A program made the translations under genes and the position numbers. Positions 1 to 41,883 of a DNA stretch of 41,883 bases are shown here, one piece after another. How positions within the stretch are numbered: position 1 is the first letter of the stretch; each line of letters opens with the position of its first letter. The notes beneath the pieces were generated by a model, which ran no database searches, was not told the origin of the DNA, and saw only the letters and a program-made list of their open reading frames with translations. The DNA lies in IMG/VR virus record IMGVR_UViG_3300024238_000001, positions 1 to 41,883 of that record; one strand, given 5' to 3'. This DNA is from a virus.

Positions 1-1
1 A

Positions 2-166
2 GTACTAGTAGATGTAATTAATAGTAATGAGTATTTTAAGACCTTAGATATTGATGGATATATAATCTCCCTCAATAGGAATACAAGCCATTTTAAGACT
101 TATCTAATAATTGGAGGTATAGGGGTAGGAGTAGGAATAATTACAGCTCTAGTCTTCTTAAAATAA
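2..166 (+). CDS. C-terminal end of a membrane-anchored protein (5' end outside window)
   Basis: An open frame runs in from the left edge and stops at TAA 164-166, giving 54 visible residues. The last ~22 residues form a Gly/Ile/Val-rich hydrophobic segment (about YLIIGGIGVGVGIITALVFL) followed by a single Lys, so the protein ends in one transmembrane helix. It sits 6 bp before a lysozyme gene, which makes a holin, spanin or other lysis/virion membrane protein plausible, but the sequence does not decide this. The start and N-terminal part are not in the window. Confidence 0.6.
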   Translation, partial: VLVDVINSNEYFKTLDIDGYIISLNRNTSHFKTYLIIGGIGVGVGIITALVFLK

Positions 167-172
167 TAGATC

Positions 173-981: not shown

Positions 982-2616
982 ATGACAATTCCAGCAAGAC
1001 CAATAGGACAAGATCCTCAATCTCAATGGTTATGGTATATATTACAAAAGCTTGATAGACTTACACAAATTATTTCTTCTGCTGAAGTAGGGACAGCAGT
1101 AACAATCGCTAATGGAGCTGATGTAGCTTTAGGAAGTACTACTGATGCTAAGAGTTCTGCCACTGATGCTACAGCTACTACTATTGTCTCTTTAACAAAA
1201 GAGATATCCTACTTATTACAAAATACGTTGGGGGTTACTACCGCAGATGGAGGTCAGGTTACAATAGGAGCTAAAGCTGATGCCAGGAATATAGCTACAG
1301 ATACCACTGCTATAACAGCAATGCAAGTATGGAAACAAATTTCCTACATGCTACAAAATCCAGCTACTATTCCTAATGGTGGTAATGTAGCCCTCGGTAG
1401 CACTACAGATGCTAAAAGTGCTTCAACAGACACTACAGCAGTAACAGCAATTTCTTTGCTTAAAGAGTTATCCTATCTCCTACAGAGTGTAGAAAGTGTA
1501 GCTAATACAGCAAGAACAGTCTCTACAGTTGTGATTCCTACACAACCTATTGATGAGTCAGGAAATGTGCTGGGGAAAACTGCTGCAAATACTACCAGAA
1601 CTGTAGCTACATTGGTCACTCCATCTCAAATAGTAGATGCTACAGGTAATGTTATCGGCATATCTGCAGCTAATACGGCTAGGGCTGCTTCAGACAAAGT
1701 GCTACTTGTTCAAACTATTGATGCTACGGGAAGTATTGGTGCGGGAGCAACAGATATTGATACGTCAGCATTTGCTGCAACTACGTCTAAAGGTCAAGTT
1801 ATCATGGCTATAGGTAACCCTTCTACGTTAGTTGCCGCAGATCAGAAGGGCGCAGTAGGAATGACTTTAAATAGAGACCTTAGGGTCTTCAATCCACCAT
1901 CAACGATGATGGCTGAATATAGAAGTCCAACAGATTTTACTGTAGTATTCGCTTCTTCTACTACTTTAACGGTAACAGGGGCTCCATTTACAGTAGATGA
2001 TTCTGTATGTAGGGTAACATCCATTTTATATAAAGATGTAAATGGTGTATTTAGAGGGTTATTTAATGCTCGTGGAGGTGTCAGTATCACGTGTGTTAGT
2101 GGTACTATTACGGTAGCTGGCGCGGGAACTCCATTCACAAATACAGATACTATATATGATGTGAATCTTACTGGTCCAAAGAAGGCTTACGATAACACAT
2201 TAGATGTTCTTAAGAGTATAGATCAAGCTCCATTGAGTTCTCAGTACGTATTAGATAGTCTTATAGACACAACGAACGTCACAGCCGCTACTAACTATTA
2301 TCCTTCGTCTACGGGTATGGCAATGGACGGATTTAGAGACATGTCTCTAACGGGACAGTTGATAGATTCTGACAATACAACTACTATGACTCTTGAGGTT
2401 ACTAATGATGAAGATGCAGTTAATGCGAATTGGCAGCAGATCTACGGATACGATAGTATCGGCAATGCGAATATCAATAGTGTTATCTGTGCATCAACTA
2501 CCAAGAACTTTGCTTGGAACTTCGACAACTTTAACTTCTCATTATTTAGGGTTAAGATTGTCAATGGCGATAATACGAATACGATGGTGGTTAAATGTAG
2601 AAGAAAGGCATTATGA
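982..2616 (+). CDS. Virion appendage/structural protein with internal repeats
   Basis: A protein of 544 aa, low in Cys and rich in Ala, Thr, Asp and Val, as in phage tail or fibre proteins. Residues ~39-168 contain three ~43-residue repeats of the type 'NGADVALGSTTDAKS..TDTTA......K.(I/L)SYLLQ'. Residues ~171-255 contain three ~27-residue repeats of the type 'AANTxRTV...V.P.Q.(I/V)D.(T/S)GN(V/L)'. The C-terminal ~150 residues look like a beta-rich domain. I know repeat units of this kind from phage structural proteins but cannot name a family. The last 53 bp overlap the start proposed for the endonuclease at 2564. It is the first gene after a likely promoter and heads the LamG series. Confidence 0.75.
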   Translation: MTIPARPIGQDPQSQWLWYILQKLDRLTQIISSAEVGTAVTIANGADVALGSTTDAKSSATDATATTIVSLTKEISYLLQNTLGVTTADGGQVTIGAKADARNIATDTTAITAMQVWKQISYMLQNPATIPNGGNVALGSTTDAKSASTDTTAVTAISLLKELSYLLQSVESVANTARTVSTVVIPTQPIDESGNVLGKTAANTTRTVATLVTPSQIVDATGNVIGISAANTARAASDKVLLVQTIDATGSIGAGATDIDTSAFAATTSKGQVIMAIGNPSTLVAADQKGAVGMTLNRDLRVFNPPSTMMAEYRSPTDFTVVFASSTTLTVTGAPFTVDDSVCRVTSILYKDVNGVFRGLFNARGGVSITCVSGTITVAGAGTPFTNTDTIYDVNLTGPKKAYDNTLDVLKSIDQAPLSSQYVLDSLIDTTNVTAATNYYPSSTGMAMDGFRDMSLTGQLIDSDNTTTMTLEVTNDEDAVNANWQQIYGYDSIGNANINSVICASTTKNFAWNFDNFNFSLFRVKIVNGDNTNTMVVKCRRKAL

Positions 2617-2992
2617 GAAAGTTAAGCAGTTAAATAGGGAGGCAACTATTAAAAGATTAACAGATGGTAAATATCCTAAAACAAATACAAAAATAGAACA
2701 GATTATGTATTCTGCTCTAGTTGAATTAGGAGTAGATTTTGTACATCAGTATAATTTTAATAATAAATTTGTATGTGATTTTGCTATTCCTATATATAAA
2801 ATAATAATTGAGTGTGATGGTGACTATTGGCATAATAGATCAGATGCTAAAAAAAGAGACGCACCTAAAAATGCATATATACCTAAATGTGGGTGGACAT
2901 TATTAAGATTTTGGGAAACTGACATTCATAATAATTTACAAAAATGTTTAGATGAAATTATAAATAACATGAATTATAAACAAGCCCTGTAA
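2564..2992 (+). CDS. DUF559/Vsr-like PD-(D/E)XK endonuclease, probable free-standing homing endonuclease
   Basis: The core (NTKIEQIMYSALVELGVDF, then VCDFAIP and IIIECDGDYWH, then LLRFWETDI) is the DUF559/Vsr-type nuclease fold: Asp of 'CDFAIP' and Glu of 'IIECDGDYWH' are the metal-binding pair, and 'RFWE..I' is the conserved C-terminal strand. The frame is open upstream to 2393, but that part is only a shadow of the previous gene. The best in-frame ATG is 2564, giving 142 aa and an overlap of 53 bp with the appendage gene. Small nucleases of this type often spread as mobile elements between phage structural genes. Confidence 0.8.
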   Translation: MAIIRIRWWLNVEERHYEKVKQLNREATIKRLTDGKYPKTNTKIEQIMYSALVELGVDFVHQYNFNNKFVCDFAIPIYKIIIECDGDYWHNRSDAKKRDAPKNAYIPKCGWTLLRFWETDIHNNLQKCLDEIINNMNYKQAL

Positions 2993-3004
2993 ATCAATAT
3001 AGTT

Positions 3005-3409
3005 ATGCAATTACCATTAACAGCAACAGATTTGACGCCTTTGGTGTCACAGATTTTAGAAAAAACAGTGAATCTTGCTCAGGCAGCAGCGGCATACGAT
3101 TTATTCACTGCAACTGGAGATATCTATATAGAAGATATTAATCTCTATTGTACTGTTGCAGGGGCAACTTTTACCTCTGTAGCAATTGCTACAAATGATA
3201 CAGTGCCTATAGTCATTATGACAGCAGCAGAGGGCGCACTAGCAAATATTGTTGCAGGAACTAATTTTCAACCAGCAACTAAAGGGAAGACCTTTAGATT
3301 GAAGTCTGGAAATAAGGTCAGATATACGATTGTAGGCTCTACAGGTACAGGTACGATAATCGCCACTTGTAAATATAGAACTATTTCATCAGGAGCAACA
3401 TTAACTTAA
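3005..3409 (+). CDS. Putative virion protein, unknown family
   Basis: A protein of 134 aa, rich in Ala, Thr, Val and Ile with few charges, typical of beta-rich phage decoration or fibre proteins. The N-terminal ~35 residues are probably helical (Ala/Gln-rich) and the rest beta strands with a 'SGNKVRYTIVGSTGTGTIIATCKYR' style C-terminal hairpin region. It is separated from the appendage gene only by the endonuclease and belongs to the same transcription unit. No diagnostic motif was recognised. Confidence 0.7.
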   Translation: MQLPLTATDLTPLVSQILEKTVNLAQAAAAYDLFTATGDIYIEDINLYCTVAGATFTSVAIATNDTVPIVIMTAAEGALANIVAGTNFQPATKGKTFRLKSGNKVRYTIVGSTGTGTIIATCKYRTISSGATLT

Positions 3410-35548: not shown

Positions 35549-35805
35549 TTCTTTTTAATTTTAATACCAAATTGACTATAAAACCATTCAAAAGTCTCTG
35601 TTGCTCTTAGTCTATTACATTTAAATACTTTCTTTAAGAGTTTAATAGAATCTTTCTTATATTCCTCATATCGTACAGAGGATATCTCCCATTCAAACCA
35701 CCAATTCTCATTTAATTCTGCTTCTGGAAGCGTTTTATCAATTCTTGCTAGCATATCTTTTATCAAATAGATAGAGATATTAAGTCTGTTTATTGTCTCA
35801 TTCAT
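35545..35805 (-). CDS. Unknown small protein
   Basis: A protein of 86 aa from the ATG at 35805 (MNETINRLNISIYLIKDMLA); the frame is open upstream to 35922 but that portion is a shadow of the IS110-like gene. It contains 'ENWWFEWEISSVRYEEYKKDSIKLLKKVFKCNRLRATETFEWFYSQFG'. It overlaps the end of the IS110-like gene by 8 bp. Function unknown. Confidence 0.62.
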   Translation of the reverse strand: MNETINRLNISIYLIKDMLARIDKTLPEAELNENWWFEWEISSVRYEEYKKDSIKLLKKVFKCNRLRATETFEWFYSQFGIKIKKK

Positions 35806-36754
35806 GTTTATACTTCCATCCTCTTTCTTCTGGTTGAATAATTCCTGTATGTCCCATTTTCTCCTGAACATATAAATATGGAGTAGGAAGTCCTTCCAAT
35901 GTTCTCCATACTTTCCATACATCAGCTAAGAAATGTTTATTCATCTTTCTTATAGCAGCATCATGTCTATGAGAAGGCATAGTATCTTTCCACATCATCC
36001 TCTCTAAAGCTTTTCCATCAGTTTTACGAGAGAGAGTGAATAACTCACTATTAGATAACTTAAGTTTCTCTCTATCATATACTTCTCTATAAGCCCCTCT
36101 ACTTCTAATCATAGATCCTGCAAAGGCATAAAGAGCTGTACGAAGAGTCTTATTTCCTCCTCCTGCCTCTCCTTTAGTATATCTCTCATGAGAAGATTTA
36201 TCATATCCAACATAACTCCATAAAGAGGATGCATATTCCGCATTCTCAATTTTGATATAAACAAGAAGAAATGCAATAGTAATTGGCCCTACTCCTTTTA
36301 TATTAAGAGCTGCTTTAACAAAGGAATTATCCATAGACTTAAGATGCTTTGTTATCTCTATATCCTTATCTTTTACTTGTTTAGAGACTACTTTTATCAT
36401 ACCTTCAAGCCACTGTTTTGTTGCAGGATCTGTATGATCTACTTTTCTATTATAGGCATCAAGTCTATTATTAAAGGAATAAAGAAGTTTTATATATTGC
36501 TTTCTTGTATCCATCATAGTTTTAAGTTGTTCAAGAGAGTCTTCTCTTTCTCTTAATGTCCCATGCTCTTTCATATGAGTCTTAGGCATAATAACAATAA
36601 CATTTGTCTCATCCCTATAAGTACCATTTTTGCTCTTAGGAATTTTCCTGTGAGTATCAAATAGTTTTGTCTTTATTGGTAATGTCTCTGCTGTAAAAGC
36701 ATCTTTACCTCCTTGTTGCACTCTTTTCTTGTTTTTCAAAATTTCTTTTGCCAT
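35798..36754 (-). CDS. IS110/IS116-like Transposase_20 domain protein without recognisable RuvC-like DEDD domain
   Basis: A protein of 318 aa. Residues ~150-215 match the IS110-family C-terminal (Transposase_20) helix-hairpin-helix block: 'ALNIKGVGPITIAFLLVYIKIENAEYASSLWSYVGYDKS' followed by 'GEAGGGNKTLRTALYAFAGSMIRSRGAYREVY'. The N-terminal ~110 residues lack the D.....E..D pattern of IS110 RuvC-like domains and no flanking IS ends were seen. More likely a phage-owned DNA-binding protein related to the IS110 C-domain than an active transposase. A 36-bp repeat array lies directly upstream (36787-37038). Confidence 0.7.
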   Translation of the reverse strand: MAKEILKNKKRVQQGGKDAFTAETLPIKTKLFDTHRKIPKSKNGTYRDETNVIVIMPKTHMKEHGTLREREDSLEQLKTMMDTRKQYIKLLYSFNNRLDAYNRKVDHTDPATKQWLEGMIKVVSKQVKDKDIEITKHLKSMDNSFVKAALNIKGVGPITIAFLLVYIKIENAEYASSLWSYVGYDKSSHERYTKGEAGGGNKTLRTALYAFAGSMIRSRGAYREVYDREKLKLSNSELFTLSRKTDGKALERMMWKDTMPSHRHDAAIRKMNKHFLADVWKVWRTLEGLPTPYLYVQEKMGHTGIIQPEERGWKYKHE

Positions 36755-36786: not shown

Positions 36787-37038
36787 TTGATTCATTATTT
36801 ACTCATAGGTATCTTACTTCAAATAATTCATTTCGCCTCACTGGTTATCTTGATGTTAATAATTCATTTGCATTCATTGGTTATCTTGGATCTATTGATT
36901 CACTTTTCCCTTTTGTATATCTTTCAACTATTGATTCATTTTAATCCTTTGGATATCTTCGTATTCATAATTCGCTTAGAGTCTTTAGGTATCTTGTCTG
37001 TGATGATTCATTTATCTATTTTGGTTATCTTCTGAAAA
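36787..37038. repeat. Seven 36-bp tandem units with two conserved boxes (ATTCATTT ... TATCTT)
   Basis: Units start at 36787, 36823, 36859, 36895, 36931, 36967 and 37003, exactly 36 bp apart. In each, ATTCA (once ATTCG) begins at position 4 and ATCTT begins exactly 21 bp later; the bases between and after are variable. The array fills the gap between PolA and the IS110-like gene, directly upstream of the latter. On the + strand the units are free of stop codons and would read as a 12-residue hydrophobic repeat, but no proper start is present. Regulatory or origin-like direct repeats seem more likely. Confidence 0.85.
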
Positions 37039-40288: not shown

Positions 40289-40654
40289 TTAATCTTGTAC
40301 TTGCTTCCATAATTTCTGTAAAGGATCATACCTACGTTGAATTCCAACAAAATATTTTCCTTTCTTAATTGTAGAACTCCTGTGATCTTTTATAGGAAGC
40401 TCAATACTCTTATCAATATTTTCTTTTACATTCTCTTTAAATGTATGGTTAAGAGTACAATCTTTAAGTACATCTATACAAAATCCATCTTCCATCTCAT
40501 AAAGATCATACTCTCCACAGAGAGCATGAACACTTCCTGATTGTTCAGAAGCAGCTAGGAATCTTTTTTCTACTTTAACTGCGTTTGAGGGAATCTTATC
40601 TATAAGATAAAATTGGCAGTCGCCCTGATGACCCACTTGTTCTTCGATTTTCAT
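40289..40654 (-). CDS. Small protein with QRRYDP motif, partner of the adjacent SQLx-repeat protein
   Basis: A protein of 121 aa: 'VGHQGDCQFYLIDKIPSNAVKVEKRFLAASEQSGSVHALCGEYDLYEMEDGFCIDVLKDCTLNHTF' then a Lys/Glu-rich stretch and 'KGKYFVGIQRRYDPLQKLWKQVQD'. The layout 'HQGD......(L/I)P', 'SG..HA', '(L/V)..(L)NH.(E/F)H', then 'G.Y.V..QR.YDP' resembles a small actinobacterial protein I associate with genes of the repeat-protein type next door. Function unknown. It starts 5 bp after the upstream stop, so the two are co-translated. Confidence 0.65.
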   Translation of the reverse strand: MKIEEQVGHQGDCQFYLIDKIPSNAVKVEKRFLAASEQSGSVHALCGEYDLYEMEDGFCIDVLKDCTLNHTFKENVKENIDKSIELPIKDHRSSTIKKGKYFVGIQRRYDPLQKLWKQVQD

Positions 40655-40659
40655 AACAT

Positions 40660-41883
40660 TTAATTGTTAAATTGTGTAAAATTATATTTCAATTCCTCTG
40701 GTATTTGGGAAGGTCTATGAAATTTTGCAGCTTCTTCTACTTTGGTAAATGTAGGAAGTGTATCTAGCATATAGGTTGTTCCTGTCGAAGGACAGGAGAT
40801 TTCATACCAAGACATATACTCTCCTTGATTACCGTTTTTATCAACTAAAAATTTCACCTTATTTTTTGTCTTCCAGAGGTATTGTGTTTCAGAATAACCA
40901 GAGATATGTATAAACTTTTTAGTATCAATTATTTCTGCATCAAGAAATTTAATTAACTCTTCATTCCCGAAATTTTCTTTAATTATAGAAATAACAGCTC
41001 CTTTAACATCTTCATTTTCTTCTTTAGAGAATTCTTTAAAAGTATATTGTTTATTTATTACCTTATTAAATATATCTGTAGGAATATTCCTACCATTAAT
41101 ATAATAAGAATCAAATTTAGTAATATCTGTAGAATATCCCCACTCTACTGCATTTTCTTTTGTTGAATGTAAGTCATTATTTGAGTTTCTATGAACTCTT
41201 TTAGGATATTTAGAGACAACACATAAGATTTCTGAAAAGATCGCAGAATAAATTCCAGAAGATTTTTGTAAGGAGAAACAGTCTTCAAAATCCTTTTCGA
41301 GAGTTAATGACAAATTAAACTCGTCCTTTATAAATTTAAACCACTGATAATAACAATCTGAATAAACACTTAATGTAAATAAATAAGAATTATTACAAGT
41401 ATTTAATTTAGAACTACCAAGCTGACTATCAAGCTTACTACGAAGCTGACTATCAAGCTGACTATCAAGCTGACTAAAAAGCTGACTATGAAGCTGACTA
41501 ATAAGCTGACTATCAAGCTTACTACGAAGCCGACTATCAAGCTGACTATTAAGCTGACTAAAAAGCTGACTAAAAAGCTGACTACGAAGCTGACTATCAA
41601 GCTGACTAAAAAGCCGACTATCAAGCTGACTATCAAGCTGACTATCAAGCTGACTACGAAGCTGACTATCAAGCTGACTATCAAGCTGACTAAAAAGCTG
41701 ACTATGAAGCTGACTATTAAGCTGACTATGAAGCTGACTACGAAGCTGACTATCAAGCTGACTAAAAAGCTGACTACGAAGCTGACTATGAAGCTGACTA
41801 ATAAGCTGACTATCAAGCTGACTATCAAGCTGACTAAAAAGCTGACTATCAAGCTGACTAAAAAGCTGACTACGAAGCTGACT
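40660..41883 (-). CDS. Large SQLx-repeat protein with DUF6745-like C-terminal domain (5' end outside window)
   Basis: The frame is open from the TAA at 40660-40662 to the window edge, at least 407 codons, with no start codon in between except a late TTG at 41313 that would drop the repeats. C-terminal domain (~217+ residues): 'SGIYSAIFSEILCVVSKYPKRVHRNSNNDLHSTKENAVEWG', 'DSYYINGRNIPTDIFNKVINKQYTFKEFSKEENEDVKGAVISIIKENFGNEELIKFL', 'TGTTYMLDTLPTFTKVEEAAKFH'. This follows the order of DUF6745 ('RPt.ihRDe.gRLH...GPA..y.DG...y..hG..vP..', 'E.N.EvRr.miE..G', 'TGr.Y.L.VPp'), as I remember it. In front of it are 39 Ser-Gln-Leu-X units, matching the (W/R/G/D)SQV repeats seen with that domain in Actinobacteria. 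Confidence 0.78.
   Translation of the reverse strand, partial: SQLRSQLFSQLDSQLFSQLDSQLDSQLISQLHSQLRSQLFSQLDSQLRSQLHSQLNSQLHSQLFSQLDSQLDSQLRSQLDSQLDSQLDSRLFSQLDSQLRSQLFSQLFSQLNSQLDSRLRSKLDSQLISQLHSQLFSQLDSQLDSQLRSKLDSQLGSSKLNTCNNSYLFTLSVYSDCYYQWFKFIKDEFNLSLTLEKDFEDCFSLQKSSGIYSAIFSEILCVVSKYPKRVHRNSNNDLHSTKENAVEWGYSTDITKFDSYYINGRNIPTDIFNKVINKQYTFKEFSKEENEDVKGAVISIIKENFGNEELIKFLDAEIIDTKKFIHISGYSETQYLWKTKNKVKFLVDKNGNQGEYMSWYEISCPSTGTTYMLDTLPTFTKVEEAAKFHRPSQIPEELKYNFTQFNN
41416..41883. repeat. 39 perfect-phase 12-bp tandem repeats, array runs off the window
   Basis: The unit on the coding (-) strand is AGT-CAG-CTT-NNT. The 38 variable NNT codons inside the array are GAT (Asp) 15, TTT (Phe) 8, CGT (Arg) 7, CAT (His) 4, ATT (Ile) 2 and AAT (Asn) 2; the unit nearest the domain has GGT (Gly). 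Three units have AAG or CGG-type changes at the CAG codon (AAG at 41437 and 41521 regions; CGG at about 41530 and 41614). No insertion or deletion breaks the 12-bp phase over 468 bp. Two other frames are also open through it, but only the SQLx frame joins the downstream conserved domain. Confidence 0.95.

Follow-up and report, generated by a model that had tools for sequence, protein, structure and literature searches.

What does a long run of four-residue repeats do in a phage protein? The question is raised by a minus-strand frame at the end of the stretch analyzed here (the window: all 41,883 nucleotides of the IMG/VR virus record IMGVR_UViG_3300024238_000001), in which tandem Ser-Gln-Leu-X units precede a domain related to DUF6745 (Pfam PF20530), a domain of unknown function in actinobacteria, cyanobacteria, and Microcystis phages. 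The 3′ part of an accessory module of phages lies in the window, composed of a DUF6745-type protein, whose N-terminal domain is seen in relatives only, and an all-beta partner. Based on sequence comparisons, the repeat array is tentatively read as a fast-evolving binding surface of this module, which would be used in cis or in trans. The features of the module within the window are the following:

41416..41883, minus strand: Ser-Gln-Leu-X array of 39 units, open at the contig edge with upstream units missing (frame, unit count, and Tandem Repeats Finder)
40660..41415, minus strand: C-terminal domain of about 250 amino acids with its stop codon, a divergent DUF6745 (PF20530) relative sharing the motifs CVVSKYP..H and CPST with its relatives (homology by intermediates)
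40289..40654, minus strand: partner gene, 121 amino acids, with an all-beta AlphaFold2 model (predicted local distance difference test, pLDDT, 87), of the PHROG 27831 family (sequence family and model)

The Frame and Its Repeat Array

The minus-strand frame is open from the contig edge at 41883 down to a TAA stop codon at 40660-40662, and encodes 39 tetrapeptide units of 12 nucleotides (nt) at 41416-41883, followed by a domain of 249 residues. The sequence-only reading of this DNA had described an uninterrupted frame from 40660 to the window edge with a domain of about 250 residues after the repeats, as well as an internal TTG start at 41313, and inspection of the open reading frames (ORFs) agrees with both. 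Its count of 39 units also holds, but the fixed Gln that it proposed does not, as the exact Ser-Gln-Leu is found in 35 of the 39 units and Gln is replaced in the other four (two SRL and two SKL). Residue X is, as stated there, Asp, Phe, Arg, His, Ile, or Asn in most units, with the exception of the last one, which has Gly.

In the DNA, the unit reads AGT CAG CTT NNT. Tandem Repeats Finder gives a period of 12 with 39.2 copies at 41413-41883, and the 9-mer AGTCAGCTT occurs 35 times in the array against a chance expectation of 0.5 for the whole window. Since a 12-nt unit leaves further array frames open in the window, an open frame does not in itself argue for translation. What supports translation here are the relatives, in which Ser-Gln-Leu is maintained despite unrelated codons and also within full-length genes that are intact. 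The contig end falls inside the array, as in many contigs of the relatives, and the start codon and the N-terminal part lie outside the window.

Conservation of the Unit and Variability of Residue X

The set of arrays was enlarged by scanning IMG/VR for a pattern of six Ser-Gln-Leu-X units, and all composition figures refer to the matches listed, that is, 88 non-redundant arrays with 2179 units. Conservation reaches 92% for Ser, 95% for Gln, and 99% for Leu, with 28 different codon triplets encoding Ser-Gln-Leu across the arrays, both serine codon boxes included. In a single group (L014-L016), Asn-Thr-Leu is found in place of Ser-Gln-Leu. Stops interrupt the other frames in many arrays. These unit and codon counts are an indication that the array is under selection at the protein level.

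The X position is occupied by Asp (26%), Tyr (22%), Arg (16%), and Gly (13%), followed by Asn, His, Trp, Ser, and Glu. Lys accounts for only 0.3%, and Pro, Thr, Gln, and the aliphatic residues are also avoided. In two actinobacterial arrays, X is mainly Gly, Trp, Arg, and Glu.

Modular units with one variable residue each recall the TAL-type or Pumilio-type codes, and the array might accordingly bind nucleic acid with about one unit per base, a role that would suit a gene at the end of a contig in which replication and repair genes predominate among those identified. However, X is net acidic (Asp and Glu in 618 units vs. Arg and Lys in 356, out of 2179) with almost no Lys, and the arrays of related phages share no X order. 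Nucleic acid binding of this type is considered very unlikely.

Within arrays, the per-nucleotide diversity is 0.59, 0.41, and 0.11 at the first, second, and third base of the X codon, respectively, and 0-0.03 within the Ser, Gln, and Leu codons, synonymous sites included. In 245 of 258 cases, an X residue is encoded by a single codon within its array. Each array thereby reads as a reshuffled series drawn from a small number of fixed 12-nt modules. Neutral homogenization would erase the diversity of X along with the silent diversity; since the former persists, selection for a diverse X is suggested. Mutagenesis directed at NNY codons in the X position was abandoned as an explanation, since AGG, TGG, and AGA belong to fixed types of module in some arrays.

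A periodicity of X at a lag of nine units, which appeared in the first 19 arrays (z 2.66), was discarded as it disappeared in the larger set, where no periodicity is found at three, four, or nine units. A weak excess of equal X residues five units (20 residues) apart is present (pooled z 3.2; per-array t 2.66 in 50 arrays).

Turnover of Arrays between Relatives

Arrays change faster than the sequences around them. For instance, the C-domains of L010, L011, and L012 are 85-87% identical and their arrays are unrelated. More broadly, relatives with 85-88% identical flanks carry unrelated arrays, and those with identical flanks carry identical or slightly altered ones. The same applies within a single contig: L125 contains two DUF6745 paralogues (93-1260 and 1488-3051, minus-strand coordinates), with C-domains 84% identical and wholly different arrays of 50 and 19 units.

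Many contigs begin or end inside an array, sometimes at both ends (3300046380_000009, with L079 and L096; 3300031548_000003, with L102 and L142; and others). Short-read phage assemblies break in these arrays, and the gene family is therefore systematically under-annotated.

Fused and Stand-alone Arrays

In several phage groups, an array-free DUF6745 gene (the core) lies beside up to eight or nine short frames that consist of an array only and differ in their X series. Stand-alone arrays were found at 0 of 75 loci with a fused array vs. 16 of 36 loci with an array-free core only, in counts that include redundant records of the same phage. Stand-alone array genes, with frames of 40-147 amino acids, surround array-free DUF6745 genes at the following positions:

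L101, 3247-6378: run of array genes with differing X series
L061, 6681-8414 and 10887-11072: array genes with differing X series
L082, 1360-2187: run of array genes with differing X series
L065, 2688-7968: array genes with differing X series

In L101, eight array frames, the core, and the partner follow in succession on one strand. A GGAGG-like site precedes the start of every array frame, and several of the array starts are at, or a few bases from, the preceding stop codon. Most array frames of L061 have a GGAGG-like site too. Because fused loci have no stand-alone arrays and many array-free cores do, the array behaves as a separable module, and the fused-or-split pattern suggests that the separate arrays bind the core.

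These genes bear on whether the array has a specific binding role at all. It may instead be a passive spacer or a disordered low-complexity linker, sized by replication slippage and free of specific binding, similarly to the amino-acid tandem repeats of Borgs, which are described as recently formed and as giving rise to disordered regions (PMC9879509). The near-identical unit DNA within an array, the fast change in number and order of units, the low confidence of AlphaFold2 in the array, and the several homologues with a short linker or nothing at the array position would all fit a spacer. On the contrary, Ser-Gln-Leu is kept through 28 codon triplets and X avoids Lys, Pro, Thr, Gln, and aliphatics, slippage alone would homogenize X together with the other ten bases, and a spacer would have no reason to be encoded by separate array genes that have ribosome sites and lie next to cores lacking an array. 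A passive array is thus judged unlikely.

The array could also be a structural or assembly element, for example a filament or a stacking rod which multimerizes the core, with X tuning self-recognition so that only like arrays co-assemble. The regular four-residue period with its nearly invariant Leu, the many array proteins per phage, and the weak excess of equal X at five units are consistent with such a role, but periodicity is absent at the other spacings given above and X differs among the arrays of one phage, contrary to simple self-matching. Such an assembly role is rather improbable.

Relationship of the C-domain to DUF6745

The sequence-only reading expected a DUF6745 match from a Pfam search of the region 40660-41400. 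No such match was obtained for the window sequence, whose protein stays below the 27-bit cut-off of PF20530. Searched directly against Pfam and PHROG, the window protein had no more than weak or chance matches, mostly in the repeats; searches of its relatives in NCBIfam gave nothing useful, and a sequence-profile search of the PDB found nothing.

The relationship is instead established through intermediates. A chain of IMG/VR relatives, with identities between 50% and 24%, links the window domain to DUF6745. In detail, L002, 49% identical to the window domain, matches PF20530 at E=0.013 and L012 does so at E=0.0014, while two phage relatives that lack an array, L019 with 29.8 bits and L007 with 28.0 bits, are above the 27-bit cut-off. 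The latter two are 36-40% identical to the window domain, within a range of 36-49% for the phage relatives that include them. A Microcystis phage protein that belongs to DUF6745 at 2.8e-15 aligns with the window family at an hhalign probability of 94 over 153 columns. All sequences compared have in common the motif C.V(S/C)..P, then a His, then CPST. Furthermore, a DUF6745 protein of a Nocardia plasmid (1.4e-33) has a WAQV/GDQV array, and one of a Mycobacterium prophage (6e-29) a GDQL/WDQL array, in the same place and with the same period.

By the Pfam criterion, the window protein is not a DUF6745 member; by homology, it is a divergent relative of this uncharacterized family. The proposal of a phage protein that combines repeats with DUF6745 and has no described function is supported in this indirect way.

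Scans of genome contigs gave no cellular relatives, and cellular members are therefore known only from plasmid and prophage records. Plasmid matches in Aeromonas, Acinetobacter, Halobaculum, and Burkholderia were set aside, because only the repeat part of the query aligned; the one in Aeromonas is additionally antisense to an annotated gene. In two Streptomyces plasmids (L035 1-2241 and L036 1-2381), DUF6745 and the partner gene adjoin genes of the STM4014/STM4015 family.

The N-domain and the Partner Gene

Full-length phage relatives have an extra N-domain (MKTxKDFTPEIQAK...VAENPYESQIFFN) ahead of the array, and an N-domain also precedes the array in the Nocardia and the Mycobacterium prophage proteins. 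It has no match anywhere in the 41,883-nt window, which is cut inside the array. Window positions 1-172 were ruled out as the missing 5′ half. The sole other contig with the same run of 12-nt modules, L196, was also rejected, as it belongs to a different phage, though both the N-domain and the array are present.

The partner gene starts 5 nt past the stop codon of the domain, on the same strand. Partner relatives are found near 87 of 114 C-domain ORFs, in every case on the same strand, and the family includes proteins of Streptomyces, a Mycobacterium prophage, a Mycolicibacterium plasmid, and a Microcystis phage. Its motifs are QGD, (S/G)E.SG..H, H, (D/E)H, Q, and V.D, with G11, D12, E37, G40, H43, H70, H91, V119, and D121 invariant or nearly so; a shortened partner of 78-80 amino acids is present in L006, L017, and L018. 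The three histidines suggest a possible metal or ligand site. The confident all-beta model of the partner resembles only uncharacterized phage and rudivirus proteins in BFVD. Among them are A0A0N9P6K3 and Q5W358 from rod-shaped viruses of Acidianus and Sulfolobus, with E values of 0.0045 and 0.03, respectively.

Proposed Role of the Array

If the array is a binding surface, Ser-Gln-Leu would build a regular rod and the X positions would present Asp, Tyr, Arg, Gly, and residues like them in an exposed row, that is, a binding face of residues typical of protein-protein contacts. The order of X would be rewritten fast through duplication, loss, and shuffling of the 12-nt modules, under selection for X diversity. 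The N-domain, the C-domain, and the partner would be the constant machinery, which the rod would recruit to a protein target that itself changes and belongs to the host or to a competing element. In phages with separate arrays, a single core would be served by several rods that differ in their X series. The likeliest role would be the specificity part of a system in phage-host or phage-phage conflict, as fast change of X points to a target that also changes. A more specific version, in which the constant core of DUF6745 and the all-beta partner gets its specificity from interchangeable rods, fused or separate in several versions per phage, and X is a rewritable recognition code, is a doubtful possibility.

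Several observations weigh against a binding surface. AlphaFold2 predicts the array of L012 as a low-confidence helix (pLDDT 30-48), so that a regular rod is unsupported by the model, and structure searches of the PDB gave no resemblance to a solved structure for the L012 model and no match for the partner model. Some DUF6745 cores have neither a fused nor a stand-alone array in the DNA examined, and the array is therefore not essential to all cores. Assembly of arrays from short reads is unreliable and the exact unit orders contain errors. Finally, the diversity of X could partly be neutral turnover of old unit types.

In the literature searched, with most subscription journals outside its coverage, no mention of DUF6745, nothing relevant on tetrapeptide repeat proteins in phages, and no description of stand-alone array proteins, of the codon pattern, or of the conserved partner was found. 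For a domain with no described function, the conserved partner, a variable position that can be read from the sequence, and a strong signature of diversifying selection offer handles, and the phages with a physically separate array make binding of core and array in trans directly testable. Should the array prove to be a recognition code, with four residues per unit of which one is variable, few known modular binding scaffolds would be as simple, and it would mark a probable phage conflict system.

Genomic Setting

Other genes of the window are consistent with a phage record. They include a UvsX-like recombinase, a primase, a DnaB-like helicase, a DNA polymerase, and a RadC-like DNA repair protein, with a guanine-cytosine content of about 32% for the window; the virus record of 41883 bases is probably a fragment. 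The array module is located at the end of a minus-strand gene block, beside the genes of the polymerase and the RadC-like protein. Positions 35798-36754, within the replication gene block, hold a transposase-like gene (PHROG 4285, 1e-29), and a short imperfect tandem repeat of 36 bases at 36810-36959 adjoins the DNA polymerase gene.

Comparison with Known Systems

The closest system is DUF6745 itself. The C-domain is related to it via intermediates, the order of N-domain, optional tetrapeptide array, and C-domain is the same, and the same neighbor gene is found in Streptomyces, Mycobacterium, Mycolicibacterium, and Microcystis phages, although the partner is not a Pfam criterion. The differences are that the window sequence scores below detection, that units in the phages have the form x-Ser-Gln-Leu or x-Asn-Thr-Leu, as opposed to x-(A/D/G)-Gln-(V/L), that X in phages is D/Y/R/G/N/H/F instead of G/W/R/E, and that several phage groups encode the array as a protein of its own.

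In pentapeptide-repeat proteins, the short tandem units are centered on a Leu, which a small residue precedes by two positions, with a polar residue in between. The window array likewise consists of short tandem units with Leu, small, and polar residues. However, its period is four residues (12 nt) and not the five of A(D/N)LxX, it has no Pfam pentapeptide match, and no confident solenoid model was obtained.

Targets of diversity-generating retroelements are similar in that certain codon positions vary far above their surroundings. In the arrays, however, variation is limited to the X codon, where codons such as AGG, TGG, and AGA belong to fixed types of module. The adenine-specific variation of retroelement targets is absent, because the adenines of the Ser and Gln codons are invariant within arrays.

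The repeats of Borgs (PMC9879509) share with the arrays a near-identical repeat DNA in genes of mobile elements and a fast turnover. Borg repeats are described as recent and independently arisen, whereas here one motif extends across 88 arrays and 28 codon triplets, and only X varies.
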